Positions 6,660 to 29,360 of a stretch of 35,250 bases of DNA are shown piece after piece. Position 1 is the first letter of the stretch, and the number at the start of each line of letters is the position of its first letter. Source of the DNA: Candidatus Eisenbergiella merdipullorum (GTDB lineage Bacteria > Bacillota > Clostridia > Lachnospirales > Lachnospiraceae); the NCBI GenBank assembly GCA_019118445.1, contig DWYY01000025.1, forward strand, positions 1-35,250. The letters run 5' to 3'. The notes beneath the pieces are model-generated. The model was not told the DNA's origin. It saw only the letters and a list, made by a program, of their open reading frames with translations, and ran no database searches. Position numbers and translations under genes: made by a program.

Positions 6660-6755
6660 GGGGGCACGGCTGAGCCGTGCTCAAAGGCAGACACGGCTCG
6701 AGGGAGAGCTGGGCTCAAGAGGGAGCCGGGCACGGGAAAGGAGAGGAAAAGGGGA
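6660..6755 (+). other. GC-rich intercistronic spacer with hairpins
   Basis: The 96-base gap contains a perfect 7-base-pair hairpin, GCACGGC (6664-6670), TGA loop, GCCGTGC (6674-6680). A second small stem pairs GGCTC (6712-6716) with GAGCC (6723-6727). No T-run follows, so neither is a convincing terminator. CACGGCT- and GGCTC-type words recur at irregular spacing, suggesting degraded short repeats. The ribosome binding site of the next gene is AAAGGAGAGG at the end of the gap. Confidence 0.5.
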
Positions 6756-7921: not shown

Positions 7922-9664
7922 ATGAAAAAAATCGGATTATCGGAAGCGGGAAAACAGAAGTGGCTCCGTTTTTCCTCGAAATGGCTGTTTCCACTTATTC
8001 TGATGGTCTATCCGCTTTTATGGGCCAACCAGGGCATCGATGTATCGGACCCTACCTACAGCCTGACCAATTTCCGCTTTTTTCCGGAGCTGTCCGGCAC
8101 TTGGGCCATTGCCACCTGGCTTGCGAATGTGGCGGGATTCCTTCTCATGAAGCTTCCTTTTGGGGACACGCTTCTGGGAATGAATCTGTATACCCGGCTG
8201 CTCATCAGCGCCACGGCCCTTCTCGCTTATTTTTTCCTGCGGGGAAAGATGCCGTCATGGATGGCATTCGCGGGGGAGATCATCGCCGTCAGCTTCTGCT
8301 GGTGTCCTTCCACGATCCTTTACAATTATCTTACCTATTTTCTGCTCCTTGCCTGCTGTATCTGTCTGTTCCGCGGGCTGATCTGGGACCGGAAGGGACT
8401 GCTGGCTTGCGCAGGGGTCTGCCTGGGACTGAATGTGGCCGTCCGGACGCCGAACATTCTGGAAGCCGTGCTCATTCTGGCTGTGTTCTGGTATGGGAAG
8501 CTCTGCGGGGAAACCTCCGCAAAAGTGTGGAAAAACGTCCTCTGGTGCGTCTGCGGCTTTCTGGCAGGTTTTCTGGCAGCCTTCCTCGCCATCTGCATCC
8601 AGTACGGACCGGCCGCCTATTTTGGCATGTTCACAAGTCTTTCCGGATATGCGGGTACGGATGAAAGCTATTCAGCATTGTCCATGGTGACCTCGGTGCT
8701 GTCCGCCTACGCCGGGACGCTTCAGTGGGTGATGACGCTGGTGGTCTGCTGGCTTGCGGGCTGGATCTTCTTCCGGTTCCTGCCTGTAAGACTAAAGCTG
8801 GCAGGCAGGGTGGTTTACTGCCTCTGCATCCCGGTGCTGATCAGACTGTTCTGGGGCAGGGGCATGTTCACTTTTACTTACTATAATTATCGGAGCATCT
8901 ATGAATGGGGCATGCTGCTTCTGTACCTGGCGCTGGCCGCCTGTGTGCTGGTGATGGCGGATTCCCGTGCGTTCCATAGGGATCGGCTGCTTGCGGCCAT
9001 CATCCTGCTCGTCATCCTGGTGACGCCCATCGGAAGCAATAACGGCACCATGCCCGCTCTGAATAATCTGTTCCTGGCAGCTCCTTTCGCGATCTGGACG
9101 TTTTCGGGCCTGCTTTCCCGCAGCCGAAAGCACACTTTTGCCTTCCCGGCCGCCGCGCTGGTGACGGCGGTGTTCGTGATGACGGCGGTGCAGGGGATCG
9201 GCTTTCGCGCCTCTTTTTCCTTCGGGGACGGGATTTATGGGGAAAAAAGGGATGCAAAAGTGGAAAACAGTGCTATACTGATAGGCATGAGGACCAGGGA
9301 AGAAAACGCGGAGAGTCTGTCGGGACTTACGGCCTTCGCGGAGGAAAAGTCCCTTTCCGGAACGTCTCTCATCACCTTAGGGAGCGCGCCGGGCCTTCAT
9401 TTTATCCTGGATATGCCGCCGGGCATTTCCCATTGTTGGCCGGACCTGGACACCTATCCCGCCGCCCTGATGAAGGAAGAGCTGGACGGGCTTCTTTCTT
9501 CCCCAAATGCGCTCCCCGCCGTGATCGTCTATAAGGAAAACGGGGAGCTTCCGGCGGAGACGGAGAAATGGGAATACCTGAAAGAATATATGGAGAAGGG
9601 CGGCTATACGCTCCTTTATGAAAACGGCGGGTACCGGGTATATATCAGCGCACAAAACGGCTGA
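7922..9664 (+). CDS. Large polytopic membrane protein, GT-C-like
   Basis: This 580-residue protein has its first helix near residues 21-35, then an acidic, aromatic first loop (NQGIDVSDPTYSLTNF, 36-51) and about ten more helices. A soluble C-terminal region of roughly 130 residues follows. The acidic first loop between helices 1 and 2 and the overall architecture are typical of GT-C transferases, but I cannot name a family. The ATG at 7922 was chosen, with AGGTGG about 10 bases upstream. An in-frame TTG at 7883 would overlap the previous stop and has no properly spaced site. In this locus it probably adds a sugar from a polyprenyl-phosphate donor on the outer face; it could also be an uncharacterised transporter-like protein. 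Confidence 0.65.
   Translation: MKKIGLSEAGKQKWLRFSSKWLFPLILMVYPLLWANQGIDVSDPTYSLTNFRFFPELSGTWAIATWLANVAGFLLMKLPFGDTLLGMNLYTRLLISATALLAYFFLRGKMPSWMAFAGEIIAVSFCWCPSTILYNYLTYFLLLACCICLFRGLIWDRKGLLACAGVCLGLNVAVRTPNILEAVLILAVFWYGKLCGETSAKVWKNVLWCVCGFLAGFLAAFLAICIQYGPAAYFGMFTSLSGYAGTDESYSALSMVTSVLSAYAGTLQWVMTLVVCWLAGWIFFRFLPVRLKLAGRVVYCLCIPVLIRLFWGRGMFTFTYYNYRSIYEWGMLLLYLALAACVLVMADSRAFHRDRLLAAIILLVILVTPIGSNNGTMPALNNLFLAAPFAIWTFSGLLSRSRKHTFAFPAAALVTAVFVMTAVQGIGFRASFSFGDGIYGEKRDAKVENSAILIGMRTREENAESLSGLTAFAEEKSLSGTSLITLGSAPGLHFILDMPPGISHCWPDLDTYPAALMKEELDGLLSSPNALPAVIVYKENGELPAETEKWEYLKEYMEKGGYTLLYENGGYRVYISAQNG
9271..9279 (+). promoter_or_regulatory. Possible internal extended -10 element
   Basis: TGC followed by TATACT (9274-9279) lies within the 3' part of the preceding membrane-protein gene, about 440 bases ahead of wecE. 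The nine bases are identical to the -10 of the better internal candidate at 16248-16276. The -35 region (GATGCA at 9251-9256) is poor. It may provide some extra transcription of wecE and later genes, or be chance. Confidence 0.2.
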
Positions 9665-9716
9665 AACAAAAAAGGGAAAAACAGGCCGGACAGGCCGAAA
9701 AAGGAAGGAAACGCTT

Positions 9717-10847
9717 ATGATCAGATTCAACGTACCTCCCTATACGGGGAAAGAAATGGACTATATCAGACAGGCCGTGGAGAACCAGAAGATCTGCGGG
9801 GACGGAGAGTTTACGAAAAAGTGCAGCGAGTGGATCGAGAAACGGACGGGGACGAAGAAATGTCTGCTCACCACCTCCTGCACCCATGCCACGGAGCTGG
9901 CGGCCCTGCTTACTGACGTGGGGCCGGGGGATGAGGTCATCATGCCTTCCTACACCTTTGTTTCCACGGCGGACGCCTTTGTGCTGCGAGGGGCAACCCC
10001 GGTGTTCGTGGATATCCGTCCGGATACCATGAACATAGACGAAACGCTGATCGAGGACGCCGTCACGGAAAAAACCCGCGGCATCGTCCCTGTCCATTAT
10101 GCCGGAGTGGGCTGCGAGATGGATACGATCATGGATATCGCGAAAAGACATCATCTGTTCGTGGTGGAGGATGCGGCGCAGGGGATCCTGGCGGAGTATA
10201 AGGGGAAAGCGCTTGGAGCCATCGGGGATTTCGGCTGTTTCAGCTTCCACGAGACCAAAAATGTGAGCTGCGGCGAAGGCGGCGCGCTTCTGATCGCCCA
10301 CAAAAAGGATATCGAGAACGCGGAGATCTTCCGGGAAAAGGGGACGGACCGGAGCAAGTATTTCAGGGGACAGGTGGATAAATACCGCTGGCAGAACTAC
10401 GGCTCCAGCTATCTTCCCAGCGAGCTGAACGCGGCCTATCTGTATGCTCAGCTTGAGAAGGCGGATGAGATCACGGCGGCGCGCCTCGCCATCTGGAACC
10501 AGTACCGGGAGGAGCTTTCCTGCCTGGAGCAGGCGGGACTGGTCAGCCTGCCCTATGTGCCGGAATACTGTAAGCAGAACGGCCACATGTTCTATATCAA
10601 GACGAAGGATATAGCGGAACGGACGGCGCTGATCGATTTCCTGAAAAAGAACGACATTCTGGCGGTGTTCCATTACGTTCCCCTGCATTCGGCTCCCGCC
10701 GGGCTGAAGTTCGGCCGATTCCACGGAGAGGACCGTTATACCACGAAGGAAAGCGAGCGGCTGCTGCGCCTGCCTCTTTACTACGGGCTGACGCAGGATC
10801 AGGTGAGCTATATTTCCGGTAAAGTAAAGGAATTCTATGGACATTAA
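9717..10847 (+). CDS. wecE: dTDP-4-amino-4,6-dideoxygalactose transaminase
   Basis: This 376-residue PLP enzyme matches E. coli WecE/RffA nearly end to end as recalled: GDEVIMPSYTFVSTA, VPVHYAG, VVEDAAQG, FHETKN with the PLP lysine at K181, FRGQVDKY and EDRYTTKESERLLRLPL are all visible. WecE transaminates dTDP-4-keto-6-deoxyglucose using glutamate to give dTDP-Fuc4N. The dTDP-glucose enzymes RmlA and RmlB are not in the window and must come from elsewhere. The ATG at 9717 was chosen because it gives the family length and the MIRFNVPPYTG opening; AAGGAAGG lies about 8 bases upstream. The gene overlaps the next by 11 bases. A GNAT gene at 12803 may acetylate the product, as WecD does. Confidence 0.93.
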   Translation: MIRFNVPPYTGKEMDYIRQAVENQKICGDGEFTKKCSEWIEKRTGTKKCLLTTSCTHATELAALLTDVGPGDEVIMPSYTFVSTADAFVLRGATPVFVDIRPDTMNIDETLIEDAVTEKTRGIVPVHYAGVGCEMDTIMDIAKRHHLFVVEDAAQGILAEYKGKALGAIGDFGCFSFHETKNVSCGEGGALLIAHKKDIENAEIFREKGTDRSKYFRGQVDKYRWQNYGSSYLPSELNAAYLYAQLEKADEITAARLAIWNQYREELSCLEQAGLVSLPYVPEYCKQNGHMFYIKTKDIAERTALIDFLKKNDILAVFHYVPLHSAPAGLKFGRFHGEDRYTTKESERLLRLPLYYGLTQDQVSYISGKVKEFYGH

Positions 10848-12747
10848 CGGCAGAGCGTTTGCGGCTTTTTTAAAAAAAAGAGAAAACTGGCTCATTCCGG
10901 GGGGATGCTGCTTCCTTTTGTTCCTCTGGACGGGAATGGCATATGATCACTACTTTGACCTGAACGATGATGTGCTGATCCGGGATATCCTTTCCGGCGT
11001 ATATACGGGGGAGCCGGAGGCGCTGACCGCTCAGCTTCTGGGGCCGCTCGCCTTCCCGCTCTCCTGTCTGTACCGTCTGTTTCCGGGCGTTCCGGTATTT
11101 GGCATATTCCTCTGGCTGTGCCAGGCGGGAAGCATTTTCCTGATCTTAAAGCGCAGCCTGTGCGTGCCCATCCTTGCCGGCGGATGCGGCATCCCGGGGC
11201 AGCGCGGGCAAAGCGGGGCTTATGTGACGGCTGCGAAGGCGCTTGTGGATCTTCTGGAAACGCTGCTCATCGCTGCCTGCCTCCTGTATCATCTGGTATT
11301 TGTCCAGTATACGGTGGCGGCCGGGCTTCTTGCGGCGGCAGCCTGCATTTACTTCCTGACGGGAAAAAGCGGGAAGGAGAGGAGCGCTGCCGCTTTCTGG
11401 CTGGAGAATCTCCCCGCCGCAGCGCTGTTCTGGCTTTCCTTCTGTCTGCGCAGCGAGATGGCACTCCTGCTTTTGCCCCTGGCAGCGGTGGCGGGCGTCT
11501 GGAAATGGGCCGGCTGCCGTCCCGCCTTTACAAAGGAAAACGCGGTTTCCTATCTGGGACTGTTCGGCCTGATCCTGGCAGGGCTGCTTGTCCTGGCAGG
11601 GGCGGACAGACTGGCCTGTTCCGGCCGCGCGTGGCGGGAATTTGAGGGCCTGTTTGACGCCAGGACGGAGATCTATGATTTTTACAGCCCTTCCCTGCGT
11701 TCCTGGGAAGAAAACCGGGATTTTTATGAGGGGCTGGGACTGACGGAGGCACAGTGCGCCCTCCTTCAGAATTATGACTATGGGGCGGACGACGCCATTG
11801 ACGCGCAGGTGATGGAAGCGATCGCCTCCTATGGGAAAGAAACGCAGGGGACGTTCGCACACAGCCTCTGGGAGGGCGTCTGGCTGTATGGGCAGCGGCT
11901 GAAAAACAACCGAGCCATTGTACCGGACGATCAGCTTCCCTTCCTGCTCCCGGAGGCGGGGCTGATCCTCCTTCTTCTGGCGGCGGACCTTTTGGGACGC
12001 AAAAGGAAGCCGGGCATTCTCTGGAAGCTTCTGCTCTTTGGCGCGGCAAGAAGCGGTCTCTGGATGTTTCTCATCCTGCGGGAGCGGGTGCCGGAGCGGA
12101 TCAGCCATCCGCTCTATTTCTGCGAACTGGTGATGCTGGCCTGGCTGCTTCTGGATGCGGCCGGCACGCTCCGGGAAGCCGGCACGCTCCGGGAAGCCGG
12201 CGCGGCCCGCGGGACCGGTTTATTTCGGGAAGCCGGTCCATTCCGGAAAAACGGCGCACTTCGTGGGTTCAGCCTTGCGGCAGCCGCCTTTTTCCTCGCG
12301 GCCGGAATTTTCCTCCTGCCGCGGGAGATCGGGCGCACGGAGCAGGAATATGCCCGCAGGGAACAGGTCAATGCGGTAAATCTCACCCTTCTGTCCCGTT
12401 ATGAGGAACAAAGCGAAAACCTGTATCTGGCGGATGTGATGTCCACAGTGGAATTTTCGGAAAAGCTGTTTTCCCCCAAAACCGGAATGGGGAATTATGA
12501 TCTGCTGGGCGGATGGCTGTGCAAAAGCCCGCACAGCAAAAAGAAGCTTTCCGCGTTTGGATATGAAACTATGGGGCAGGCCGTCCGGGAAGGGGAAAAC
12601 GTCCGCTTCGTGGGAGAGCCGGATGCGGACTGGTCCTGGCTTCCCGCCCTTCTTGAGCAGGAGGGGATCTCCGTGCGGCTGGTGCCGGAGGAAGAGATCA
12701 CCGCGGAAGGAAGGAGCATGTACATCTGGCGTCTGGAGAGGAGCTGA
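10837..12747 (+). CDS. Large polytopic membrane protein with in-frame hexapeptide repeats, GT-C-like
   Basis: This 636-residue protein has its first helix near 20-36, then a loop with YFDLNDDVLIRD (39-50, acidic D44 D45) that is typical of GT-C-like proteins in clostridial polysaccharide loci. About ten further helices follow. Residues 442-477 are six degenerate hexapeptides (AGTLRE, AGTLRE, AGAARG, TGLFRE, AGPFRK, NGALRG) placed in a loop between two hydrophobic segments. The last 140 residues or so are soluble. The gene overlaps wecE by 11 bases, with AAAGGA about 6 bases before the ATG, so the two are probably translationally coupled. The specific family is not recognised, and the transferase role is inferred. 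Confidence 0.65.
   Translation: MDINGRAFAAFLKKRENWLIPGGCCFLLFLWTGMAYDHYFDLNDDVLIRDILSGVYTGEPEALTAQLLGPLAFPLSCLYRLFPGVPVFGIFLWLCQAGSIFLILKRSLCVPILAGGCGIPGQRGQSGAYVTAAKALVDLLETLLIAACLLYHLVFVQYTVAAGLLAAAACIYFLTGKSGKERSAAAFWLENLPAAALFWLSFCLRSEMALLLLPLAAVAGVWKWAGCRPAFTKENAVSYLGLFGLILAGLLVLAGADRLACSGRAWREFEGLFDARTEIYDFYSPSLRSWEENRDFYEGLGLTEAQCALLQNYDYGADDAIDAQVMEAIASYGKETQGTFAHSLWEGVWLYGQRLKNNRAIVPDDQLPFLLPEAGLILLLLAADLLGRKRKPGILWKLLLFGAARSGLWMFLILRERVPERISHPLYFCELVMLAWLLLDAAGTLREAGTLREAGAARGTGLFREAGPFRKNGALRGFSLAAAAFFLAAGIFLLPREIGRTEQEYARREQVNAVNLTLLSRYEEQSENLYLADVMSTVEFSEKLFSPKTGMGNYDLLGGWLCKSPHSKKKLSAFGYETMGQAVREGENVRFVGEPDADWSWLPALLEQEGISVRLVPEEEITAEGRSMYIWRLERS
12160..12267 (+). repeat. Six tandem 18-base repeats encoding degenerate hexapeptides
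   Basis: Six consecutive 18-base units start at 12160, 12178, 12196, 12214, 12232 and 12250. The first two are identical and the others diverge progressively. All stay in frame and encode AGTLRE, AGTLRE, AGAARG, TGLFRE, AGPFRK and NGALRG. The identical first pair suggests recent slippage or duplication. The repeat sits in a hydrophilic loop of the membrane protein. Confidence 0.9.
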
Positions 12748-12802
12748 GATTGAAAAACAGGAAGCCGGACGCGGCGTAGAACATAAAAAGGAGCGGATGT
12801 TT

Positions 12803-13345
12803 ATGACTGTGGGACAGGAAAACAGGATAGAGCTGGGGCCGGTCTATTTCCGGCCGATCACGCTGGAAGATACAGACCGGATCATAAGATGGCGCAATTC
12901 CGACCGGGTCCGGAAGAATTTCATCTATCAGGAGCCTTTTACCAGACAGGGGCATCTGAACTGGATGGAGACGAAGGTCGCTTCGGGAGAGGTGGTCCAG
13001 TTCATCCTCTGTGAAACGAAAGGGGACAGGGCCGTGGGAAGCGTCTATATTCGGGATATCGACCGGAAAAACCGGAAAGGGGAATACGGGATCTTCATCG
13101 GAGAGGCAGACGCGGCAGGAAAGGGCTACGGAACGCTGGCGGCAAAGGGAGCCATCGCCTATGCCGGAGATATCCTGCATCTGCACAAGCTGTTTTTACG
13201 GGTGTTCGCGGACAATGCCGCCGCCCTCAGAAGCTATGAAAAGGCGGGATTTGTGCGGGAGGCCATTTTAAAGGATGAAATCAGAAACGGGGACGGAAGC
13301 TGGAGGGATCTGATCCTGATGGCGGTCCTGTTCCCGGAAAATTAA
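12803..13345 (+). CDS. GNAT family N-acetyltransferase (RimJ/PseH/WecD-like role)
   Basis: This 180-residue protein shows a complete GNAT fold signature: PVYFRPIT (13-20), RWRNSDRVRKNF (29-40), the acetyl-CoA loop AAGKGYGT (105-112), and LHLHKLFLRVFADN followed by SYEKAGF (125-150). It resembles RimJ/RimL- and PseH-type enzymes. In PseH-like proteins the substrate is a nucleotide-activated 4-amino sugar, so acetylation of dTDP-Fuc4N from the nearby wecE, or of the product of the aminotransferase at 21316, is plausible but not proven. The start at 12803 gives 9 bases from AGGAG; ATG 12797, two codons earlier, has only 3. It lies 55 bases after the previous gene. Confidence 0.85.
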   Translation: MTVGQENRIELGPVYFRPITLEDTDRIIRWRNSDRVRKNFIYQEPFTRQGHLNWMETKVASGEVVQFILCETKGDRAVGSVYIRDIDRKNRKGEYGIFIGEADAAGKGYGTLAAKGAIAYAGDILHLHKLFLRVFADNAAALRSYEKAGFVREAILKDEIRNGDGSWRDLILMAVLFPEN

Positions 13346-18960: not shown

Positions 18961-20895
18961 ATGAAGGAAAAAGATAAACCGAAAAAACACCATTTTAATT
19001 ATCAGCTTTTTTACCGGAGAACGGCGCTGATCATATATGATGTCCTGAGCATTACCGCCGCCAGCTTTTTGGCGCTGCTTCTGCGCTATGACATGCATGT
19101 GGATGCCATTCCGGACGAATTCCTGCTGCCTGTCCGGAATTTCCTGCCGTTCAACATCGTGCTGACGCTTGCCATTTTCTATTTCTTCCGCCTGTACCAC
19201 AGCCTGTGGGCCTTCGCTGGGGAAAACGAGATGCAGAATCTGGTGATCGCTTGTTTCCTGTCCGCCATCGTGTCAGGGGTGGGGCTGAATCTGTTCAAGA
19301 TATCCGGTCAGCCCGTGCCGGACAGCTACTACTTTATGTATTTGTTCCTGCTTGTCACCTTCATGTTCATCAGCCGGTTTTCCTATCGGTTCCTGCGGAG
19401 CCGCAAACACCGGATGCAGAATAAGAAAAACAATATCTCTGTCATGATCATCGGGGCAGGAGAGGCGGGAAACGCGCTGATCAAGGAGATCGTCACCAGC
19501 AATTACAGCACCATGGTCATCCGATGCATCATCGACGACGATAAGCAGAAATGGGGTCAGTTCATCCAGGGCATAAAGGTGGTGGGCGGACGGGATAAGA
19601 TCATTGAGGCCGCTGACCTGTACGATATCGACGAGATCTTCATCGCGATCCCTTCTGCGCCCAGGTCGGTCATCCGCGATATCCTGGATATCTGCAAGGA
19701 GACGAACTGCAAGCTGCGTTCCCTGCCCGGCATGTACCAGCTGGTCAACGGCGAGGTGAGCGTCAGCAAGCTGCGGGATGTGGAAGTGGAGGACCTGCTT
19801 GGGAGGGAGCCGATCCGGGTGGATCTGGATTCCATCCTGGGCTATGTGCAGAACAAGGTGGTCCTGGTCACGGGCGGAGGCGGTTCCATCGGCAGTGAGT
19901 TATGCCGTCAGATCGCAACCCATAAGCCTGCACAGCTCATCATCGTGGATATTTATGAAAATAATGCCTATGATATCCAGCAGGAGCTTCTGCAGCATCA
20001 TCCCGAACTCTCGCTGGAGGTGCTGATCGCCTCCGTGCGGAACACGAGACGCATGAATGCAATCTTTGCGAAATATCGGCCGGACATTGTTTATCACGCG
20101 GCCGCGCACAAGCATGTGCCGCTGATGGAGGCAAGCCCTAACGAAGCCATCAAGAACAACGTGTTCGGCACCTGGAAGACGGCGTCGGCCGCGGCGATGA
20201 ACGGCTGCCGCAAATTCGTGATGATCTCCACGGACAAGGCGGTGAACCCTACTAACATCATGGGGGCGAGCAAGCGGATCTGTGAGATGATCATTCAAAC
20301 CTTCAACAAGCATTACGATACGGAGTTCGTGGCTGTGCGTTTCGGAAACGTGCTGGGAAGCAACGGGAGCGTGATCCCGCTGTTCAAAAAGCAGATCGCG
20401 GAGGGCGGGCCCGTGACCGTCACCCATCCGGACATCATCCGCTATTTCATGACGATCCCGGAGGCGGTTTCCCTGGTCCTTCAGGCGGGCGCCTATGCGA
20501 AGGGCGGAGAGATCTTCGTCCTGGATATGGGAGAGCCTGTGAAGATCCTGGACCTGGCAAAGAACCTGATCCGCCTGTCCGGTTACAAGGTTGGGGAGGA
20601 CATCCAGATCGAGTTCACGGGCTTACGCCCCGGCGAGAAACTCTACGAGGAGCTCCTGATGGATGAGGAAGGCATGCAGGATACCGCCAACAAGCTCATC
20701 CACATTGGAAAGCCCATCGAGATCGACGAGGACAAGTTCTTCATCCAGTTAAAGAAGCTGGAGGATGCTTCCCTTGCCGAGGCGGAGGATATCCGTCCCC
20801 TGGTGCAGCAGATCGTTCCCACCTATGTATACAAAAAGGACGGGAAGACCGTTACGGCGGAGCAGAAGGACGAAAAAAAGGAAAACGCATCCTAG
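18961..20895 (+). CDS. Membrane-bound UDP-GlcNAc 4,6-dehydratase (PglF/CapD/WbpM-like)
   Basis: This 644-residue protein has four N-terminal membrane helices (about 18-135), a nucleotide-binding middle domain (about 155-270) and an SDR domain with TGGGGSIG (304-311), HAAAHKHVPLME and STDKAVNPTN (423-432). The usual YxxxK is MxxxK (M434, K438), as established for the WbpM/PglF group. These enzymes convert UDP-GlcNAc to UDP-2-acetamido-2,6-dideoxy-4-hexulose with bound NAD. It heads the amino-sugar module: VOC protein, aminotransferase, initiating transferase and ATP-grasp protein follow within 60 bases of one another. The product would feed the aminotransferase at 21316 to give a bacillosamine-type or AATGal-type sugar. 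Confidence 0.92.
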   Translation: MKEKDKPKKHHFNYQLFYRRTALIIYDVLSITAASFLALLLRYDMHVDAIPDEFLLPVRNFLPFNIVLTLAIFYFFRLYHSLWAFAGENEMQNLVIACFLSAIVSGVGLNLFKISGQPVPDSYYFMYLFLLVTFMFISRFSYRFLRSRKHRMQNKKNNISVMIIGAGEAGNALIKEIVTSNYSTMVIRCIIDDDKQKWGQFIQGIKVVGGRDKIIEAADLYDIDEIFIAIPSAPRSVIRDILDICKETNCKLRSLPGMYQLVNGEVSVSKLRDVEVEDLLGREPIRVDLDSILGYVQNKVVLVTGGGGSIGSELCRQIATHKPAQLIIVDIYENNAYDIQQELLQHHPELSLEVLIASVRNTRRMNAIFAKYRPDIVYHAAAHKHVPLMEASPNEAIKNNVFGTWKTASAAAMNGCRKFVMISTDKAVNPTNIMGASKRICEMIIQTFNKHYDTEFVAVRFGNVLGSNGSVIPLFKKQIAEGGPVTVTHPDIIRYFMTIPEAVSLVLQAGAYAKGGEIFVLDMGEPVKILDLAKNLIRLSGYKVGEDIQIEFTGLRPGEKLYEELLMDEEGMQDTANKLIHIGKPIEIDEDKFFIQLKKLEDASLAEAEDIRPLVQQIVPTYVYKKDGKTVTAEQKDEKKENAS

Positions 20896-20908
20896 GAAAA
20901 GAGGCAGC

Positions 20909-21298
20909 ATGAAAGTACATCATATCGGCTATCTTGTGAAAAAACTGGAGAAGGCCGCCGCGGAATTTGAAAAGCTGGGCTACTCGCGGATGGGGGAGGT
21001 TACGGATGATGCTTACCGAAAGGTGGACATCCTGTTTCTGCAGAAGGACGGCTATGTGATCGAACTGGTCAGCCCTAACGCTCCTGACAGCGTGGTGAGC
21101 GGCCTGATCAAAACCTATAAGAATGCGCCCTATCATATCTGCTATGTCTGCGGGGATCTGGATAAAGAGATCGCAGAGCTTTCCTCCAAAGGGTATGTGC
21201 AGATCGATCTGCCCGCGCCCGCTCCGGCGATCGGAGGGAAGCGGGTGTGCTTCCTGATGAACCGCTTCATCGGGATGGTAGAGCTTCTGGAACAATAA
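20909..21298 (+). CDS. VOC family (glyoxalase-fold) metalloprotein
   Basis: This 129-residue protein has two beta-alpha-beta-beta-beta halves typical of the vicinal oxygen chelate superfamily. MKVHHIGYLV (1-10), VIELVSP (50-56), PYHICYVCGDL (74-84) and GMVELLEQ (122-129) give probable metal ligands His5, Glu52, His76 and Glu125, one per expected position. VOC members include epimerases, lyases, dioxygenases and resistance proteins, so the reaction cannot be inferred from fold alone. The gene sits between the dehydratase (13 bases upstream) and the aminotransferase (17 bases downstream), where a role on a keto or amino sugar nucleotide is plausible. The start was chosen for the canonical HHIGY opening; GAGGCAGC precedes it. 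Confidence 0.85.
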   Translation: MKVHHIGYLVKKLEKAAAEFEKLGYSRMGEVTDDAYRKVDILFLQKDGYVIELVSPNAPDSVVSGLIKTYKNAPYHICYVCGDLDKEIAELSSKGYVQIDLPAPAPAIGGKRVCFLMNRFIGMVELLEQ

Positions 21299-21315
21299 AG
21301 AAAAGGAGAATCGTC

Positions 21316-22503
21316 ATGGAAAAGAAGAGAATTTATCTGTCTTCCCCGACCATGCATGGGGATGAGCAGCGGTTTGTGAACGAGGCCTTCGAGACCAACT
21401 GGATCGCCCCTCTGGGACCGAATGTGAATGCCTTTGAAAAAGAGATGGCGCAGTATACGGGCTGTGGCTATGCGGCGGCGCTGAGCGCTGGGACGGCGGC
21501 GATCCATCTGGCGCTGCGGCTCATCGGGATCCGGCCGGGAGATGTGGTGTTTTCTTCTGATCTGACCTTTTCGGCCACCTGCAATCCCATCTGCTATGAA
21601 AAGGGGACGCCGGTTTTCATCGACGCGGAGGAGAAGACCTGGAACATGGACCCGGACGCACTGGAGCTGGCTTTTGAAAAATATCCGGACGCGAAGGCAG
21701 TGATCTGCGCCCACCTGTACGGCACGCCCGCCCAGATCGACCGGATCCGGCAAATCTGCGACAGAAGAAAAGTGCCGCTCATCGAGGACGCGGCCGAATC
21801 CCTGGGCTCTTCCTTCCGGGGTAAGATGACGGGATGTTTCGGAGACATCGGTATTTATTCCTTCAACGGCAACAAGATCATCACCACCTCAGGCGGCGGC
21901 ATGCTGGTCTCCGCAAACGAGGAATATGTGGACCGGGCCAGATTTCTTGCCACCCAGGCGAGGGATCCTGCCAGATATTACCAGCACTCCCAGCTCGGTT
22001 TCAACTACCGCATGTCCAATGTGGTGGCGGGGATCGGAAGGGGGCAGCTTCTGCATATTGAAGAACACAAGAAGAAAAAGCAGGAGATCTACAGACAGTA
22101 TAAAGAAGCCTTCGCGGATATCCCGGCCATTACCATGAACCCGATGAATCCGGACGGGGATGCGAACAATTGGCTTTCCTGCATCAGCCTGGCTCCCACA
22201 TGCGGGGTCACGCCGGACATGGTGATGGACGCGCTGGCGGAGGAGAACATTGAGACCAGGCCTATCTGGAAGCCCATGCACATGCAGCCCATCTTTGCAA
22301 ACGCGGATTTCTTCACGAAGGACGGTTCCCGCAAAGGGGCGGACGCATGCAGCGTTCAGATGCTTGATTCGAATGCGGAGCCGGAAAGCGTGGGCGCAAA
22401 GGTCTTCTACCATGGCGTGTGCCTGCCCAGCGACATCAAGAACACGCCGGAGGACATGGAACGGATCATCGGCCTGATCAGGGGCCTGTTTGAGAAAAGA
22501 TAG
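21316..22503 (+). CDS. DegT/DnrJ/EryC1 family sugar aminotransferase (PglE/WcfR-like)
   Basis: This 395-residue PLP enzyme opens with RIYLSSPTMHGDEQRFV (5-21) and TNWIAPLGPNV (27-37). It has SAGTAAIHLALRL (57-69), a VPLIEDAAESLGS segment, and FNGNKIITTSGGG with the PLP lysine at K187. TRPIWKPMHMQP follows in the C-terminal part. The family transfers an amino group from glutamate to a 4-keto sugar nucleotide. Next to a PglF-like dehydratase it should make UDP-4-amino-4,6-dideoxy-GlcNAc (PglE) or the galacto epimer AATGal (WcfR); sequence reading alone does not settle the stereochemistry. AAAAGGAG lies 7 bases before ATG 21316. An upstream in-frame extension overlaps the VOC gene and is unlikely. 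Confidence 0.9.
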   Translation: MEKKRIYLSSPTMHGDEQRFVNEAFETNWIAPLGPNVNAFEKEMAQYTGCGYAAALSAGTAAIHLALRLIGIRPGDVVFSSDLTFSATCNPICYEKGTPVFIDAEEKTWNMDPDALELAFEKYPDAKAVICAHLYGTPAQIDRIRQICDRRKVPLIEDAAESLGSSFRGKMTGCFGDIGIYSFNGNKIITTSGGGMLVSANEEYVDRARFLATQARDPARYYQHSQLGFNYRMSNVVAGIGRGQLLHIEEHKKKKQEIYRQYKEAFADIPAITMNPMNPDGDANNWLSCISLAPTCGVTPDMVMDALAEENIETRPIWKPMHMQPIFANADFFTKDGSRKGADACSVQMLDSNAEPESVGAKVFYHGVCLPSDIKNTPEDMERIIGLIRGLFEKR

Positions 22504-22533
22504 ATCATATCGGACGGAAGGAGGCGGAGAGAA

Positions 22534-23166
22534 GTGTTATACAGGAAATTCGGGAAAAGGGCGCTGGACGTGATGCTGTCCGGCTGCGCCATTGTGGTGC
22601 TTTCGCCCGTGCTTCTGGTCACAGCTGCCCTGGTGCGCATCAAGCTGGGAAGCCCGGTCCTGTTTTGCCAGGAGCGCCCCGGTCTGCATGAAAAGATTTT
22701 CACCCTGTGCAAATTCCGTACTATGACGGACGAGCGGGATGAAAACGGACAGCTTCTTCCGGATTCGGTCCGTCTCACCCCGTTTGGAAAGTTTCTGCGC
22801 TCCACCAGCCTGGACGAGCTGCCGGAGCTGTTCAACATCTTTAAGGGCGATATGAGCATCATTGGACCCAGACCCCTTCTGGTTTCCTATCTGCCCTGGT
22901 ATACCCAAGAAGAGCGCCTGCGCCATACGGTGCGTCCGGGTCTGACCGGACTGGCTCAGGTGTCGGGGCGGAATTTCCTGGACTGGGACAGACGGCTTGC
23001 CAAGGATGTGGAATATGTGAAAAACCTATCCTTTGCCATGGATCTGAAGGTGCTGTTTCTGACGGTCAAAGCGGTGTTTGACCGGTCCGGCGTGGCGGAG
23101 GATACGGCGGCTTCGGAAGGAAACCTGGCACAGATCAGAAAGGAAAGGGCGGAATCATGGAAATAA
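22534..23166 (+). CDS. Initiating phosphoglycosyl transferase (PglC/WcfS-like)
   Basis: This 210-residue monotopic protein has one N-terminal re-entrant helix (about 11-34, with Ser24-Pro25). FRTM (61-64), the catalytic Asp94-Glu95 in STSLDELPELFN, MSIIGPRP (107-114), and VRPGLTGLAQVSGR (133-146) follow. Such enzymes move a sugar 1-phosphate from UDP-sugar to undecaprenyl phosphate and start a lipid-linked oligosaccharide. The compact size matches PglC rather than WbaP. Its substrate is probably the 4-amino sugar from the two enzymes upstream. The start is GTG at 22534, supported by AAGGAGG 9 bases upstream. The last 10 bases overlap the ATP-grasp gene, suggesting coupled translation. Confidence 0.92.
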   Translation: MLYRKFGKRALDVMLSGCAIVVLSPVLLVTAALVRIKLGSPVLFCQERPGLHEKIFTLCKFRTMTDERDENGQLLPDSVRLTPFGKFLRSTSLDELPELFNIFKGDMSIIGPRPLLVSYLPWYTQEERLRHTVRPGLTGLAQVSGRNFLDWDRRLAKDVEYVKNLSFAMDLKVLFLTVKAVFDRSGVAEDTAASEGNLAQIRKERAESWK

Positions 23167-24134
23167 ATATTCTGATTTTAAGCGCGGGCACCAGAAACAA
23201 GGTGGTGCAGTATTTTAAGAAAGAGCTTGCGGGAAAAGGAAAGGTGTATGCGACGGACTGCAGCAGCCTTGCCCCCGCCATCTACGAGGCGGACGAGGCC
23301 ATTCTGGTACCGCGGATCACGGAAGCGGGCTATCTTGACAGGATCCTTTCCATCTGCCGGGAAAAGAAGATCAACGGCGTATTTTCCCTGATCGACCCGG
23401 AGCTGACGCTCCTTGCCCGTCACCGTGAGAAATTCCTCGCGGTGGGGACCACGCCTGTCATTTCGCCCTTGGATGCGGTGGAGACCTCCTTCGACAAATA
23501 CCGGATGTATCAGAAGCTGTGCGAGCTTCAGATCCCCACGGGACGCTGTTTCATGGATGTGGCCGCCTTTGAGGAAGAACTCCGGGCCGGACGGATGAAG
23601 CTCCCCGTTTTCGTAAAGCCCGCAAAGGGCAGCGCCAGCATCGGCATCAACCGGGCGGACACTCTGGAGGCGGTGCGTTTCCTCTGCGGCTGTAAAGAGG
23701 ATATGATGATCCAGGAATATATGGACGGCACGGAGTACGGCGCGGATGTTTATGCGGATATGATCACGAAAAAGGTGACCTCCATTTTTGTGAAGAAAAA
23801 GCTGAAAATGCGTGCCGGGGAGACGGATAAATCCGTTTCGGTAAAGGATGAGAGACTGTTTTCATTGATAAAAAAATTCGTTGAAACTGTCGGGTTTTGT
23901 GGTATCATTGACATAGATATTTTCAGACGCGGAGACGAATATTGCATTTCAGAGGTCAATCCCCGTTTCGGCGGCGGCTATCCCCATGCCTATGAATGCG
24001 GGGTGAACGTGCCCGCACAGATCATCCGAAACCTGGAAGGAAAGCCGAATGAGGAGCGTATCGGCGATTATGAGGAAGGGATCTGTATGATGAAATACAA
24101 CGAGATCATGATCCGCAGGCAGGAGGAATTGTAA
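23157..24134 (+). CDS. ATP-grasp carboxylate ligase-like protein
   Basis: This 325-residue protein has an N-terminal Rossmann-like pre-domain (about 1-105). The ATP-grasp fold follows with FDKYRMYQ (112-119), VFVKPAKGSASIGI (151-164), MIQEYMDGTEYGADVYAD (184-201), and the metal-binding SEVNPRFGGGYP (265-276). ATP-grasp enzymes of the CarB/PylC type join a carboxylate to an amine or another nucleophile through an acyl phosphate. The gene overlaps the initiating transferase by 10 bases, in the amino-sugar module that lacks a PglD-type acetyltransferase. Coupling an amino acid or other acid to the 4-amino group is therefore an attractive but unproven role. Confidence 0.85.
   Translation: MEINILILSAGTRNKVVQYFKKELAGKGKVYATDCSSLAPAIYEADEAILVPRITEAGYLDRILSICREKKINGVFSLIDPELTLLARHREKFLAVGTTPVISPLDAVETSFDKYRMYQKLCELQIPTGRCFMDVAAFEEELRAGRMKLPVFVKPAKGSASIGINRADTLEAVRFLCGCKEDMMIQEYMDGTEYGADVYADMITKKVTSIFVKKKLKMRAGETDKSVSVKDERLFSLIKKFVETVGFCGIIDIDIFRRGDEYCISEVNPRFGGGYPHAYECGVNVPAQIIRNLEGKPNEERIGDYEEGICMMKYNEIMIRRQEEL
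23881..23908 (+). promoter_or_regulatory. Possible internal promoter within the ATP-grasp gene
   Basis: TTGAAA (23881-23886), a 16-base spacer and TATCAT (23903-23908) preceded by TGG form an extended -10 pattern. It lies in a locally AT-rich part of the ATP-grasp gene, about 230 bases before the GT4 gene at 24141. Coding constraint could also explain the match. Confidence 0.3.
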
Positions 24135-24140
24135 AAAGCC

Positions 24141-25256
24141 ATGGCATCCTGTATACTGATCTTATCCAACAGCGATTCCGGGCTGTATGATTTCCGCAAA
24201 GAGGTGCTGCAGGCGCTTCTTGCGAAGGGGAAAAAGGTGCTCGTATCCGTTCCGGATACCGGATATGCGGACCGGATACGGGCGCTTGGCTGTGAGTATC
24301 TTCCCACCTCCTTTGAGCGGCGGGGGATGAATCCCTTCAAGGATCTGAAGCTTCTGCTGTTTTACCGGGGGCTGATGAAGCGGTATCGTCCGGAAGCGGT
24401 GCTGACCTATACGATAAAGCCCAACATCTACGGCGGCCTGGCGGCAAGGATGACAAAGACGGAATATCTTGCCAATATCACTGGGCTGGGCACCACCCTG
24501 GAGCATGACGGCCCGCTGCAGAAAATGATCATCCTCATGTACCGGACGGCGTTAAAGAAAGCATCCTGCGTATTTTTTCAGAACCAGGGCAATCAGGACT
24601 TCATGCGGCAAAAAGGGTGCGTATCGGGAAAATGCCGTATCATACCTGGCTCCGGCGTGAATCTTTCCGAGCATCATGCGGAGGCGTATCCGCCGGAAAC
24701 GGATCCTGCGGCGGAAAAGCGGGTGGTATTCCTTTCCATCATGCGCCTGATGAAGGACAAGGGGATCGACGAACTCCTTGCGGCGGCGGAGCGGGTCCAT
24801 GGAAAGCATCCGGAAACGGTGTTCCGACTTTTGGGCGCTTATGAGGAGGAAACAAAAGCATATTATGAGCCGATGGTGGAGAGATTGCAGGAATCCGGGG
24901 CACTGGAATATTACGGTTATCGGGATGATGTGCCGCGCTTCCTCGCGGAATGCCACGCGCTGATCCATCCCTCCTATCATGAGGGAATGAGCAATGTGCT
25001 TCTCGAAGCGGCAGCTACGGCGCGGCCTGTCCTCGCCAGCGCGGTGGAGGGCTGTCTGGATACCTTTGAGGACGGAGTCAGCGGCATGTCTTTCGCGCCT
25101 AAGGACGCGCGGGATCTGGAGCGCGCGGCAGAGGCTTTCCTTGCCCTTCCCTGGGAGAAAAAACGGGAAATGGGACAAAAGGGACGTGAATATGTGGAAA
25201 AGCGGTTTGACAGAAGGCTGGTCATTGACGCCTATCTGGAGGAGCTGAAACTTTAG
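24141..25256 (+). CDS. GT4 family glycosyltransferase (PglA-like position)
   Basis: This 371-residue GT-B fold enzyme opens with SNSDSGLYDFRKEVL (9-23) and has RRGMNPFKDLK and LTYTIKPNIYGGLA in its acceptor domain. YYGYRDDVPRF and the EX7E motif with Glu281 and Glu289 (HEGMSNVLLEA) lie in the donor domain. It probably adds the second sugar to the undecaprenyl-PP-linked primer made by the enzyme at 22534, as PglA does, because it follows that module at once. It starts 6 bases after the ATP-grasp stop; AGGAGG is 15 bases upstream, which is long, so the start is likely but not certain. Donor and linkage are unknown. Confidence 0.88.
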   Translation: MASCILILSNSDSGLYDFRKEVLQALLAKGKKVLVSVPDTGYADRIRALGCEYLPTSFERRGMNPFKDLKLLLFYRGLMKRYRPEAVLTYTIKPNIYGGLAARMTKTEYLANITGLGTTLEHDGPLQKMIILMYRTALKKASCVFFQNQGNQDFMRQKGCVSGKCRIIPGSGVNLSEHHAEAYPPETDPAAEKRVVFLSIMRLMKDKGIDELLAAAERVHGKHPETVFRLLGAYEEETKAYYEPMVERLQESGALEYYGYRDDVPRFLAECHALIHPSYHEGMSNVLLEAAATARPVLASAVEGCLDTFEDGVSGMSFAPKDARDLERAAEAFLALPWEKKREMGQKGREYVEKRFDRRLVIDAYLEELKL

Positions 25257-25291: not shown

Positions 25292-26608
25292 ATGGGATTA
25301 TATGAGAAGCTTGTAAACGGTGAAGAAAAGCTTTCCCTGGTGGGCTTGGGCTATGTGGGCATGCCCATCGCGGTGGCCTTTTCCAGGAAGATCAAGGTGA
25401 TCGGCTACGACCTGAATGAAAAAAAGATCGAGCTGTACAGATCGGGCGCAGATCCCACCAGAGAGGTGGGAGACGACGTGATCAAAACCGCGAAGGTGGA
25501 TTTCACGGCAGATGAGAGAAGGCTGAAGGAAGCGAAGTTCCACATCGTGGCGGTTCCTACGCCGGTGAATGCCGACCATACGCCGGACCTGACCCCGGTG
25601 GAGGGCGCCAGCCGCACTGTGGGAAGGAATCTGACGAAGGGCAGCATCGTGGTCTTTGAGTCCACCGTTTATCCGGGCGTGACGGAGGAAATCTGCGTGC
25701 CGATCATGGAGAAGGAATCCGGCCTGAAATGCGGCGTGGATTTCAAGGTGGGCTATTCTCCGGAACGCATCAACCCCGGCGACAAGGTGCACCGTCTGGA
25801 AACCATCGTGAAGATCGTCTCCGGTATGGATGAGGAAACGCTGGATACCATTGCAAAGGTATATGAGCTGGTGGTGGAGGCGGGCGTTTACCGCGCAGAA
25901 TCCATTAAAGTGGCCGAGGCCGCGAAGGTCATTGAGAACAGCCAGAGGGATATCAACATCGCCTTCATGAACGAGCTTTCCATCATTTTCAATAAAATGG
26001 GCATCGACACCAAATCCGTCCTGCAGGCGGCGGGCACGAAATGGAATTTCCTGAAATTCTTCCCCGGCCTGGTGGGCGGCCACTGCATCGGCGTGGATCC
26101 TTATTATCTGACCTACCGCGCCGAGATGATGGGCTATCACAGCCAGATCATCCTGGCAGGCCGCAGGATCAACGACGATATGGGAAAATACGTGGCGGAG
26201 AACGTGGTGAAGAACCTGATCAAAGCCGATATCCCGGTCAAGACTGCCAGGGTGGCTATCCTGGGATTCACCTTCAAAGAGAACTGTCCGGATACCAGAA
26301 ATACCAAGGTCATCGACATCGTGAAGGAGCTCGGGGAATACGGTATCCATCCTGTGATCGTGGATGAGACCGCGGATGCGGACGAAGCAAACCGCCTGTA
26401 TGGCGTCACCCTTGCGGACAGAGGCGTGATCAAGGAGCTGGACGCCCTTGTCATCGCGGTTGCGCATGAGGAATTCTGCCATCTTGACAGGGAGAAGATA
26501 TCTTCTTTCTTCCGCCCTGAAAACCAGAAGAAGGTCCTTGTTGACATCAAGGGGATCCTGGACCGGAAGGATTATCAGACAGAGGATTATATCTACTGGA
26601 GACTGTAG
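25292..26608 (+). CDS. tviB: UDP-N-acetyl-D-glucosamine 6-dehydrogenase (TviB/WbpO-type)
   Basis: This 438-residue protein follows Salmonella TviB closely as recalled. It has VGLGYVGMP (17-25) for NAD, a VPTPVNAD segment, VVFESTVYPG, GYSPERINPGDK and KVAEAAKVIENSQRDINIA. KWNFLKFFPGLVGGHCIG follows, with the catalytic Cys265, then GFTFKENCPDTRNTK. TviB oxidises UDP-GlcNAc to UDP-GlcNAcA, which TviC epimerises to UDP-GalNAcA. The matching tviC gene lies at 27355, separated only by the AT-rich methyltransferase-like gene. A GAGGT site lies 6 bases before the ATG. The related UDP-mannosamine dehydrogenase WecC is the main alternative, but the QRDINIA and KENCPD stretches favour TviB. Confidence 0.9.
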   Translation: MGLYEKLVNGEEKLSLVGLGYVGMPIAVAFSRKIKVIGYDLNEKKIELYRSGADPTREVGDDVIKTAKVDFTADERRLKEAKFHIVAVPTPVNADHTPDLTPVEGASRTVGRNLTKGSIVVFESTVYPGVTEEICVPIMEKESGLKCGVDFKVGYSPERINPGDKVHRLETIVKIVSGMDEETLDTIAKVYELVVEAGVYRAESIKVAEAAKVIENSQRDINIAFMNELSIIFNKMGIDTKSVLQAAGTKWNFLKFFPGLVGGHCIGVDPYYLTYRAEMMGYHSQIILAGRRINDDMGKYVAENVVKNLIKADIPVKTARVAILGFTFKENCPDTRNTKVIDIVKELGEYGIHPVIVDETADADEANRLYGVTLADRGVIKELDALVIAVAHEEFCHLDREKISSFFRPENQKKVLVDIKGILDRKDYQTEDYIYWRL

Positions 26609-27354: not shown

Positions 27355-28332
27355 ATGGGATACAAAAATCTGAAATTTGACAAAGATTCCGTATTTCTCG
27401 TGACAGGCGGGGCGGGTTTCATCGGCTCCAACCTTTGCGAGGCGATTCTGGATATGGGTTATCAGGTAAGATGCCTGGATGATCTGTCCACCGGGAAACA
27501 GGAAAATGTGGACATGTTCCTGGACCGGGAAGGTTATACCTTCATCAAAGGAGACATCAAGGATCTGGAAACCTGCCGCCGTGCCTGTGACGGGGTGGAT
27601 TATGTGCTGAACCAGGCAGCTTGGGGCAGCGTTCCCAGGAGCATTGAGATGCCGATCTTCTACGAGAAGAATAACATCGGAGGAACGCTGAATATGATGG
27701 AGGCTGCCAGGGAGAGCGGCGTAAAAAAATTTGTATACGCCTCCAGCTCCTCCGTTTATGGCGATCATCCTGCCCTTCCCAAAAAAGAAGGGATCGAGGG
27801 CGAGGTGCTTTCTCCCTATGCGCTGACCAAGCGCACCAACGAGGAATACGGAAGGCTGTACAAAAAGCTGTACGGCCTGGATACTTATGGGCTCCGCTAT
27901 TTCAACGTGTTCGGACGCAGACAGAATCCGGACGGCATGTATGCGGCGGTGATCCCCAAGTTCTTAAAGCAGCTTCTGCATGACGAGGTCTGCACCATCA
28001 ACGGCGATGGAAAGCAGTCCCGCGACTTTACCTATATTGACAACGTGATAGAGGCAAACCTGAAGGCGTGCCTCGCTTCCAGCGATGCTGCCGGCGAAGC
28101 CTATAACATTGGCTCCGGCGGCCGGGAATTTCTGATCGATATTTATTACGACCTGTGCAAGGCCCTTGGCAAGAACATCGAGCCCAAATTTGGACCGCCG
28201 AGAAAGGGCGACGTGCGCGATTCCAACGCGGACATCACCAAGGCCAGGGAAAAGCTGGGCTATGATCCGGATTATGATTTCGAGGCTGGAATCAGGCTGG
28301 CAATCGACTGGTATAAGGAAAATCTGAAATAA
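27355..28332 (+). CDS. tviC: UDP-GlcNAc(A) 4-epimerase (TviC/WbpP-type)
   Basis: This 325-residue extended SDR has TGGAGFIGS (17-25), DDLSTG, LNQAAWGSVPRS, SSSSVYGDHPALPK and the catalytic Tyr155 and Lys159 in SPYALTK. RYFNVFGRRQNPDG and INGDGKQSRDFTYIDNVI follow. These stretches track TviC/WbpP, which interconvert UDP-GlcNAc and UDP-GalNAc or the corresponding uronic acids. With TviB upstream it would complete UDP-GalNAcA synthesis, giving the polymer a negative charge. AGGAGA lies 6 bases before the ATG, and a terminator-like hairpin follows the gene. Composition returns to the cluster average here, unlike the preceding methyltransferase-like gene. Confidence 0.92.
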   Translation: MGYKNLKFDKDSVFLVTGGAGFIGSNLCEAILDMGYQVRCLDDLSTGKQENVDMFLDREGYTFIKGDIKDLETCRRACDGVDYVLNQAAWGSVPRSIEMPIFYEKNNIGGTLNMMEAARESGVKKFVYASSSSVYGDHPALPKKEGIEGEVLSPYALTKRTNEEYGRLYKKLYGLDTYGLRYFNVFGRRQNPDGMYAAVIPKFLKQLLHDEVCTINGDGKQSRDFTYIDNVIEANLKACLASSDAAGEAYNIGSGGREFLIDIYYDLCKALGKNIEPKFGPPRKGDVRDSNADITKAREKLGYDPDYDFEAGIRLAIDWYKENLK

Positions 28333-28344
28333 AGCGGCAGAGAA

Positions 28345-28421
28345 ACCGGAACCGGCGTCCCGCAAAACGCATGTTTCTCCCATGCGTTTTCCCAAAAAGG
28401 ACGTCCGGCCCCGGTTTTTTT
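28345..28421 (+). terminator. Terminator-like hairpin inside the operon
   Basis: An inner 10-base-pair stem pairs AAAACGCATG (28364-28373) with CATGCGTTTT (28381-28390). Outside it GTCC (28357-28360) pairs with GGAC (28399-28402), then ACCGG/CCGG blocks at 28345-28355 pair with CCGG blocks at 28405-28415. Seven T residues follow at 28415-28421. This has the form of an intrinsic terminator or attenuator between tviC and the formyltransferase-like gene, whose ribosome binding site starts only 4 bases later. Confidence 0.6.
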
Positions 28422-28439
28422 GACAGGAGGAGAGGAAAA

Positions 28440-29360
28440 ATGAAGTACAGAGTTGTTGTATTCGGCGTGAAGGATACGACGGCGGAGATCGTATCCTATA
28501 TACAGGAAAAGCTGCATCCGGTGGATCTGGTGGTGACGATCCACAGCGATGTGCTCTCCGGCAATCAGGTGTCCGGCTATAAGGGACTTTCCTATCTGAC
28601 GGATCAGTACGGGATTCCTGTGTTTGAGACCCACTCCTATGGACTGAAAGATGAGGAAACAACCCGCTTTTTTGCGGAGAACGAATTTGAGATCGGCATT
28701 TCCATGGGCTGGCAGAGGCTTATCCCTCAGGCGGTGCTGGACCGCTTCCAGTACGGAATCTTTGGATTCCACGGAAGCTGCGGCTATCTGCCTTACGGCA
28801 GAGGACGCTCTCCCCTGAACTGGTCGGTGATCAACGGGGATACCCGGTTTGTGCTGAACCTGTTCCAGTATGATGCAAAGGCGGACAGCCCAAATGTGTT
28901 CGCTAACGAGATGTTTTCCATCAATCCCCACGACACCATCCGCACGCTGCAGTATAAAAATATCCTGGTGTCCAAACGGCTGATCGGAAAGCTTCTGCAG
29001 ACATGGCAGGAAGGGACGGTTAAGATCAGACGGCGGTCGAAGGACTTCGACGGCTGGTATGAAAAGCGCACTGCTGCCGACGGAAAACTGGACTTCCACA
29101 GAAAAACAAGGGAGCTTTATGATCTCATCCGCGGGGTAACCCGTCCCTTCCCGGGAGCATTCGCTTTCTGCGGGGAAACAAAAGTCACGGTCTGGAGCGC
29201 GCATCCGTTTGATGAAATGCTGGACTTTTCTGCATATGCGCCGGGAGAGGTCATTGACGTCTTTGACGGAAAGCCCATCGTGCGGACGGTGGATGGATCG
29301 CTTTTGATCGATGAATACGAATGTGAAAGGGCTCTGATGAGCGGAGATATTCTGGTCTGA
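28440..29360 (+). CDS. Formyltransferase-fold protein, candidate sugar N-formyltransferase
   Basis: This 306-residue protein has the formyltransferase N-domain ending in FGFHGSCGYLPYGRGRSP (108-125) and DAKADSPNV (145-153), then a C-terminal domain (about 205-306). In Fmt, ArnA and sugar N-formyltransferases the catalytic triad is Asn-x-His and Asp. Here His111 and Asp149 are present but the Asn position holds Gly109. The family uses N10-formyltetrahydrofolate to formylate an amino group. In this locus the likely acceptor would be a 4-amino sugar nucleotide from the aminotransferase at 9717 or 21316. The missing Asn leaves activity open. ATG 28440 has AGGAGGAGAGG just upstream. A longer start at 28371 would run through the terminator-like hairpin and is rejected. 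Confidence 0.78.
   Translation: MKYRVVVFGVKDTTAEIVSYIQEKLHPVDLVVTIHSDVLSGNQVSGYKGLSYLTDQYGIPVFETHSYGLKDEETTRFFAENEFEIGISMGWQRLIPQAVLDRFQYGIFGFHGSCGYLPYGRGRSPLNWSVINGDTRFVLNLFQYDAKADSPNVFANEMFSINPHDTIRTLQYKNILVSKRLIGKLLQTWQEGTVKIRRRSKDFDGWYEKRTAADGKLDFHRKTRELYDLIRGVTRPFPGAFAFCGETKVTVWSAHPFDEMLDFSAYAPGEVIDVFDGKPIVRTVDGSLLIDEYECERALMSGDILV

Follow-up and report, generated by a model that had tools for sequence, protein, structure and literature searches.

Which enzyme acylates the 4-amino group of a trideoxy sugar when an amino-sugar operon carries PglF-, PglE- and PglC-like genes and lacks the acetyltransferase PglD? The question is raised by five genes of Candidatus Eisenbergiella merdipullorum (Lachnospiraceae; assembly GCA_019118445.1), among them an ATP-grasp protein and a VOC protein. 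The stretch analysed here, called the window, is the whole contig DWYY01000025.1 with a length of 35,250 nucleotides. We consider it rather likely that the module is a split form of the PglB2 arrangement of Neisseria, in which the ATP-grasp protein would N-acylate the 4-amino group in place of PglD. This explanation rests on homology, gene order, co-occurrence, the scarcity of PglD and conserved residues. An initial annotation of this DNA had described five open reading frames on the plus strand, and their order, gaps and overlap were confirmed as follows:

18961 to 20895, plus strand: PglF-like UDP-GlcNAc 4,6-dehydratase (PF02719 Polysacc_synt_2, 411 bits; best solved chain WlaL 5bju, E 2e-97)
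20909 to 21298, plus strand: VOC protein with a methylmalonyl-CoA-epimerase-like fold (PF13669 Glyoxalase_4, 65 bits), 13-base gap after PglF
21316 to 22503, plus strand: PglE-like DegT aminotransferase (ATG start at 21316; PF01041, 302 bits), 17-base gap after VOC
22534 to 23166, plus strand: PglC-like phosphoglycosyl transferase (GTG start; PF02397 Bac_transf, 205 bits), 30-base gap upstream
23157 to 24134, plus strand: ATP-grasp ligase (NF009406/PRK12767.1-5), putative acyl or aminoacyl ligase on a 4-amino sugar, 10-base overlap with PglC

By homology, the PglF-, PglE- and PglC-type enzymes of a bacillosamine pathway are all present in the window. WlaL is presumably the PglF of C. jejuni, and the top chains for the aminotransferase, 1o61 (E 3e-87) and 4ztc (E 2e-86), are those which we take to be PglE; the same protein scores 360.8 bits with the LegC family model, below its cut-off of 420. 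The PglC-like protein is nearest to the solved chain 8g1n, an N,N'-diacetylbacillosaminyl-1-phosphate transferase (E 6e-69). The absence of PglD from the module was borne out as well: no match to the NeuD/PglD model TIGR03570 above its cut-off is found in the window's own genome, which is 78% complete and gives eight weak matches (best 60 against 160.8 bits), and none at E<=1e-30 in two genomes sharing the operon, G107 and G003.

The ATP-grasp protein matches PylC-like_N (133 bits) and ATP-grasp models of Pfam, and with 480.4 bits it lies above the curated cut-off of 271 of NF009406. Its nearest named relatives among the best listed are Candidatus Eisenbergiella metagenome-assembled genomes (MAGs), with 92% identity, and 50 columns are invariant in an alignment of 20 sequences. 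The structure model (pLDDT 93.7) has 2pn1 as its top match in the fold search (44% identity, TM 0.90), and in the profile search the matches extend to D-Ala-D-Ala ligases and L-amino acid ligases as well as to carbamoyl-phosphate synthase and biotin carboxylase.

On these homologies a route can be proposed in which PglF and PglE would convert UDP-GlcNAc into UDP-2-acetamido-4-amino-2,4,6-trideoxyglucose, the ATP-grasp protein would use ATP to activate a small carboxylic acid, joining it to the free 4-amino group instead of the acetylation by PglD, and PglC would start a surface glycan by loading the acylated sugar, as its phosphate, onto undecaprenyl phosphate. An amino acid would be the most likely acid, because pyridoxal-phosphate (PLP) enzymes are found as neighbours of ATP-grasp genes and because the profile and fold searches reach D-Ala-D-Ala ligases, L-amino acid ligases and PylC. 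Glycerate would be the second most likely, since the product of PglB2 is a 4-glyceramido sugar.

If the ATP-grasp protein belongs to an amino-sugar module, its genes should keep the company of PglE. We surveyed 299 genomes of the family (298 genera) with thresholds of E<=1e-40 for ATP-grasp, E<=1e-60 for PglE and for FkbH, E<=1e-30 for NeuD/PglD (TIGR03570) and E<=1e-10 for VOC. ATP-grasp occurs in 26 genomes, a PglE-like transaminase in 94, and a NeuD/PglD match in 71, 50 of these above the curated cut-off. The ATP-grasp homologues occur mostly in the company of amino-sugar genes: PglE is present in 24 of the 26 ATP-grasp genomes against 70 of the 273 others (p 1.7e-11). Among the 94 genomes bearing PglE, PglD is present in 3/24 with ATP-grasp versus 39/70 without it (p 2.6e-4). 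The aminotransferase is missing from the fetched ATP-grasp stretch of G037, G208, G080, G267, G128, G290 and G100 and sits elsewhere in the genome (11 of 11 genomes searched); loci without it are therefore no evidence against an amine acceptor, and that argument was rejected.

The neighbourhood of the gene was read in the best 80 of 552 confirmed relatives, on which all counts of 80 rest and which partly overlap the 299-genome set (L100 and G107 are one locus). Their hosts are Lachnospiraceae, other Clostridia, Bacillaceae, Caryophanaceae, one Saccharibacteria MAG and one Collinsella MAG. Blast matches with less than 35% query coverage were dropped and overlaps resolved by score, with identity floors of 40% for the aminotransferase, 42% for PglF, 55% for TviB and 60% for TviC. 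Within 9 kb of the ATP-grasp gene lie PglC in 78, the aminotransferase in 66, PglF in 58, TviB in 47 and PglD in 1 of the 80 loci; the corresponding counts in the 57 full-flank loci, which have at least 8.5 kb on both sides, are 57, 51, 50, 38 and 1. A GT4 gene is near in 54/80, and within 3.5 kb a GNAT gene is found in 12/80, a FemAB-type gene in 3/80 and a short formyltransferase in 1/80. The order PglF-VOC-aminotransferase-PglC-ATP-grasp recurs in seven of the 80 loci (L095-L100, L122), in G107 (again the L100 locus), and in G003 with an extra PLP gene between PglC and ATP-grasp. Such recurrence is more than chance; a general place of VOC in the module is not supported.

Immediately upstream of the ATP-grasp gene stands PglC in 37 of the 80 loci, a D-cysteine-desulfhydrase-like PLP gene in 27, a diaminopimelate (DAP)-decarboxylase-like PLP gene in 5, and another gene or none in 11, so that PLP enzymes adjoin it upstream in 32. 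The two PLP representatives scanned (L139, L083) stay under the cut-off of each NCBIfam model that they hit, so that any reaction assigned to them is tentative. PglC is fused to ATP-grasp in one frame of 541 residues in L085, whose ATP-grasp belongs to a divergent five-row branch of the tree (92 of 96 stretches kept, identical or short ones being excluded). Some variants of the neighbourhood were also seen. A single frame of L080 (10457-12541) reads as PglC continuing into DAP-decarboxylase-like sequence, followed by ATP-grasp. In L076 an EctB-type diaminobutyrate transaminase (6332-7600; 570 bits, above cut-off) lies near a decarboxylase-like gene and the ATP-grasp gene, a hint of diaminobutyrate or of a compound derived from it. 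Between the PLP gene and ATP-grasp, L138 (7073-8602), L167 (8497-9996) and L158 encode a further protein, some 500 residues long; its L138 copy matched no Pfam or NCBIfam model.

The VOC protein has another history. It scores 43.9 bits with TIGR03081 (methylmalonyl-CoA epimerase), below the curated cut-off of 114.95. Its model (pLDDT 96.7) gives 2qh0, 3hdp and 3oa4 as top Foldseek matches, followed by methylmalonyl-CoA epimerases. H5, E52 and H76 are invariant in 28 alignment rows and E125 is kept in at least 90%, the four being presumably the metal-ligand positions of that epimerase. VOC is found in 26 of the 299 genomes and lies within the pgl operon in three of these (the window's genome G000, G107 and G003). 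The remaining 24 fetched VOC loci, from 23 genomes, have FkbH or an acyl carrier protein (ACP) gene on the stretch in 17 cases, about 8 kb away in L061, and neither in 7. FkbH, which makes glyceryl-ACP, is present in 24 of the 26 VOC genomes versus 33 of the 273 without VOC; it is also found in 13/26 ATP-grasp genomes against 44/273 others (p 1.8e-4). Weak associations exist between VOC and PglE (14/26 vs 80/273, p 0.014) and between VOC and ATP-grasp (6/26 vs 20/273, p 0.017). The seven pgl-type VOCs form one clade among the FkbH/ACP-linked ones (tree support 97/87). In G082 (L047), an aminotransferase-PglC pair is followed by FkbH-VOC-ACP and a PglD-type gene at C49:209131, which gives VOC a different kind of link to acyl donors in an amino-sugar neighbourhood.

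Given the FkbH and acyl-carrier genes around its relatives and the FkbH shared by their genomes, an epimerase of acyl groups is a more likely role for VOC than that of a sugar enzyme. Its entry into the module seems to have been a single event, in Eisenbergiella and its close kin. The FkbH-ACP-VOC cassettes of Lachnospiraceae are the likely source of the window's VOC clade, and differ from the window in that neither FkbH nor ACP gives a match there. As an accessory seemingly recruited from such loci, VOC would probably epimerise an acyl group, whether one of this operon or, in trans, one of the FkbH-ACP cassette that the genome carries. Another contig of the same genome (L183, 8417-12145) carries FkbH, ACP and then a gene read as MBOAT, a set lacking the VOC that goes with such sets in other genomes. 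In L052 a VOC relative (9873-10253) follows immediately after genes read as GAPDH, PGK and TIM; 1,3-bisphosphoglycerate of this pathway presumably feeds FkbH. Two further ideas were rejected: that the module includes VOC as a conserved component, which its limitation to one ATP-grasp clade contradicts, and that VOC and PLP enzymes are alternatives for one slot, as many loci have neither and L037 has both.

The operon is accompanied in the window by other sugar genes, some of which bear on the alternatives:

24141 to 25256, plus strand: GT4 glycosyltransferase, the next gene of the block (family match)
25292 to 26608, plus strand: TviB-like UDP-sugar dehydrogenase (PRK15182, 490.8 bits, below cut-off 592; NDP-sugDHase above cut-off)
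27355 to 28332, plus strand: TviC-like epimerase (PRK15181, 297 bits, below cut-off 760)
28371 to 29360, plus strand: ArnA-like formyltransferase homologue that may compete in the N-acylation or act in capping (family matches)
9618 to 10847, plus strand: WecE/RffA-like dTDP-4-amino-4,6-dideoxygalactose transaminase, second amino-sugar branch (NF008687, 630 bits, above cut-off 375)
12497 to 13345, plus strand: PseH-like GNAT acetyltransferase, possibly of the second branch (TIGR03585, 88.1 bits, slightly below cut-off 93.1)

Owing to the WecE/RffA-like transaminase and the PseH-like GNAT, the glycan may also carry acylated 4-amino-4,6-dideoxygalactose. The formyltransferase homologue reads GFHGS where ArnA reads NLHGS, with Gly for the Asn before the conserved His, an Asn to which we ascribe a functional role in ArnA. 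This motif, together with the presence of a homologue within 9 kb of ATP-grasp in 32/80 loci, suggests that the activity has perhaps changed.

Several observations weigh against an ATP-grasp acylation of the 4-amino group. Over all 299 genomes the exclusion of ATP-grasp and PglD is not significant (3/26 vs 68/273, p 0.15), and all Fisher p values given here are too small because the genomes are related and no correction for kinship was applied. PglD and ATP-grasp meet within one genome in G007, G213 and G251, and within one locus, the sole such case of the 80, in L168 (11027-11641) with a different gene order; G156 and G217 have ATP-grasp and no PglE match. In the fold search PylC and the L-amino acid ligase RizA rank below many biotin-carboxylase and PurK-type chains. 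Regarding the acid, 45 of the 92 tree rows have no nearby PLP gene or VOC, and the desulfhydrase-like gene was gained or lost between near-identical ATP-grasps, at least 15 changes being forced on the tree. The window has neither PLP gene, and hence its own acid cannot be named. In addition, the GNAT and formyltransferase homologue of the window could acylate the same amine, and the TviB-like genes near 38 of the 57 full-flank loci keep a uronate target in consideration.

In the latter case the acceptor would be the carboxylate of the hexosaminuronic acid made by TviB/TviC rather than a 4-amino group, and the ATP-grasp protein would couple an amino acid or amine to it. The TviB counts above speak for this, and amines could come from the decarboxylase-like and EctB-like enzymes encoded next to some ATP-grasps. 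However, 17 of the 57 full-flank loci lack such a TviB but have the aminotransferase, while TviB without the aminotransferase is found in four, three of which (L121, L124, L171) have the aminotransferase elsewhere in the genome; moreover, the commonest direct neighbour is PglC, once even fused, and the sugar handled by PglC-type enzymes is the first one. We therefore regard a uronate target as improbable. Just as unlikely in our view is an acetylation or formylation of the 4-amino group by the window's GNAT or formyltransferase homologue, with a later step left to ATP-grasp: the near-threshold PseH score and the recurrence of the formyltransferase homologue agree with it, but the GNAT gene lies two genes from the WecE-like transaminase, whose product would be a separate amino sugar, and the formyltransferase has the altered motif. 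N-acylation of the 4-amino group by the ATP-grasp protein remains the explanation that we prefer.

For VOC, a role on the sugar itself, namely epimerisation at C3 or C5 of the 4-keto intermediate that PglF passes to PglE, is suggested by the position of its gene exactly between those of the 4-keto producer and consumer, and by fold relatives that include epimerases of the carbon next to a carbonyl. It is rendered rather unlikely by the FkbH/ACP neighbours and genomes of its relatives, by the nesting of the pgl-type clade among them, and by the absence of VOC from 51 of the 58 ATP-grasp loci with PglF. There is somewhat of a case, doubtful on the whole, that VOC works solely in trans with an FkbH-ACP cassette elsewhere in the genome, its position within the pgl operon being incidental. 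In five of the 7 genomes with FkbH, namely the window's own and those of four relatives, no VOC match is found on the 20-kb FkbH-ACP stretch; VOC tracks FkbH across genomes, and the window's genome has only one VOC at E<=1e-10; yet the operon position is held in all nine tree rows of one ATP-grasp clade, and G303 (L122) has VOC without an FkbH match, the completeness of this genome not being known.

As a result, what the initial annotation had claimed of the ATP-grasp protein is correct in outline: it belongs to the amino-sugar module, holds the place of PglD and is accompanied in part of the loci by PLP enzymes from families that act on amino acids. The view of VOC as part of the module is probably wrong in detail, its homologues being mostly without amino-sugar genes. 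We would also advance, tentatively, a widespread Gram-positive cassette building N-acyl-aminoacyl amino sugars stepwise, in which PLP enzymes would prepare an amino acid (perhaps a D-amino acid), ATP-grasp would join it to the 4-amino group before PglC acts, interchangeable enzymes of GNAT, formyltransferase or FemAB type would cap it, and the VOC of Eisenbergiella would set the stereochemistry of the acyl group. The layout with ATP-grasp for acetyltransferase in this gut bacterium's surface-sugar cluster seems, as far as gene content can tell, common to many Firmicutes. If the ATP-grasp protein acylates a 4-amino sugar, the step can be tested in many of them, and the sugar with which their surface glycans begin could be predicted from gene order.

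How does the module compare with known systems? In the relevant part of a review, PglB2 of Neisseria, treated also in PMC7643975, appears as an "ATP grasp/phosphorglycosyl-transferase" for GATDH (glyceramido-acetamido-trideoxyhexose), mutually exclusive with the acetyltransferase form PglB (PMC11130364), and its product is summarised as 4-glyceramido-2-acetamido-2,4,6-trideoxyhexose (PMC6959607). The statement that known pathways place an acetyltransferase here thus left out PglB2; by this precedent the principle of ATP-grasp acylation is not new, and the proposal of a new sugar modification is weakened. Aminoacyl, formyl and hydroxyacyl 4-amino sugars are on record in bacterial polysaccharides according to the portion of PMC3210612 that covers them, N-acetyl-D-alanyl, N-acetylglycyl, formyl and hydroxybutyryl-alanyl groups being known on 4-amino-4,6-dideoxyglucose. 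Among the open-licence PMC papers listed by our searches, the titles and abstract openings gave no ATP-grasp in a Pgl-type module apart from PglB2, and these searches brought up no ligase for aminoacylating 4-amino sugars besides PglB2, whose group is glycerate-derived.

By score and fold the window's ATP-grasp falls in the same family as the "carbamoyl phosphate synthase-like" NF009406/PRK12767.1-5 proteins with PDB 2pn1, for whose members no tested function was found in this analysis. Among solved structures, the PglF, PglE and PglC types of the Campylobacter bacillosamine pathway (PglF-PglE-PglD-PglC) are nearest to those of the window; that pathway has PglD, whereas here PglD was not found and ATP-grasp is present. 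PglB2 is one polypeptide, whereas the window has two overlapping frames and a fusion occurs only in L085; the setting also differs, with a GT4-TviB-TviC polysaccharide block here and PLP enzymes or VOC in relatives. The likeness to PglB2, going by its published outline, lies in the core of the arrangement: an ATP-grasp protein tied to a PglC-type transferase, together with PglF and PglE types, takes the place of the acetyltransferase, and the mutual exclusion of the two forms in Neisseria has its counterpart here in the scarcity of ATP-grasp and PglD together.

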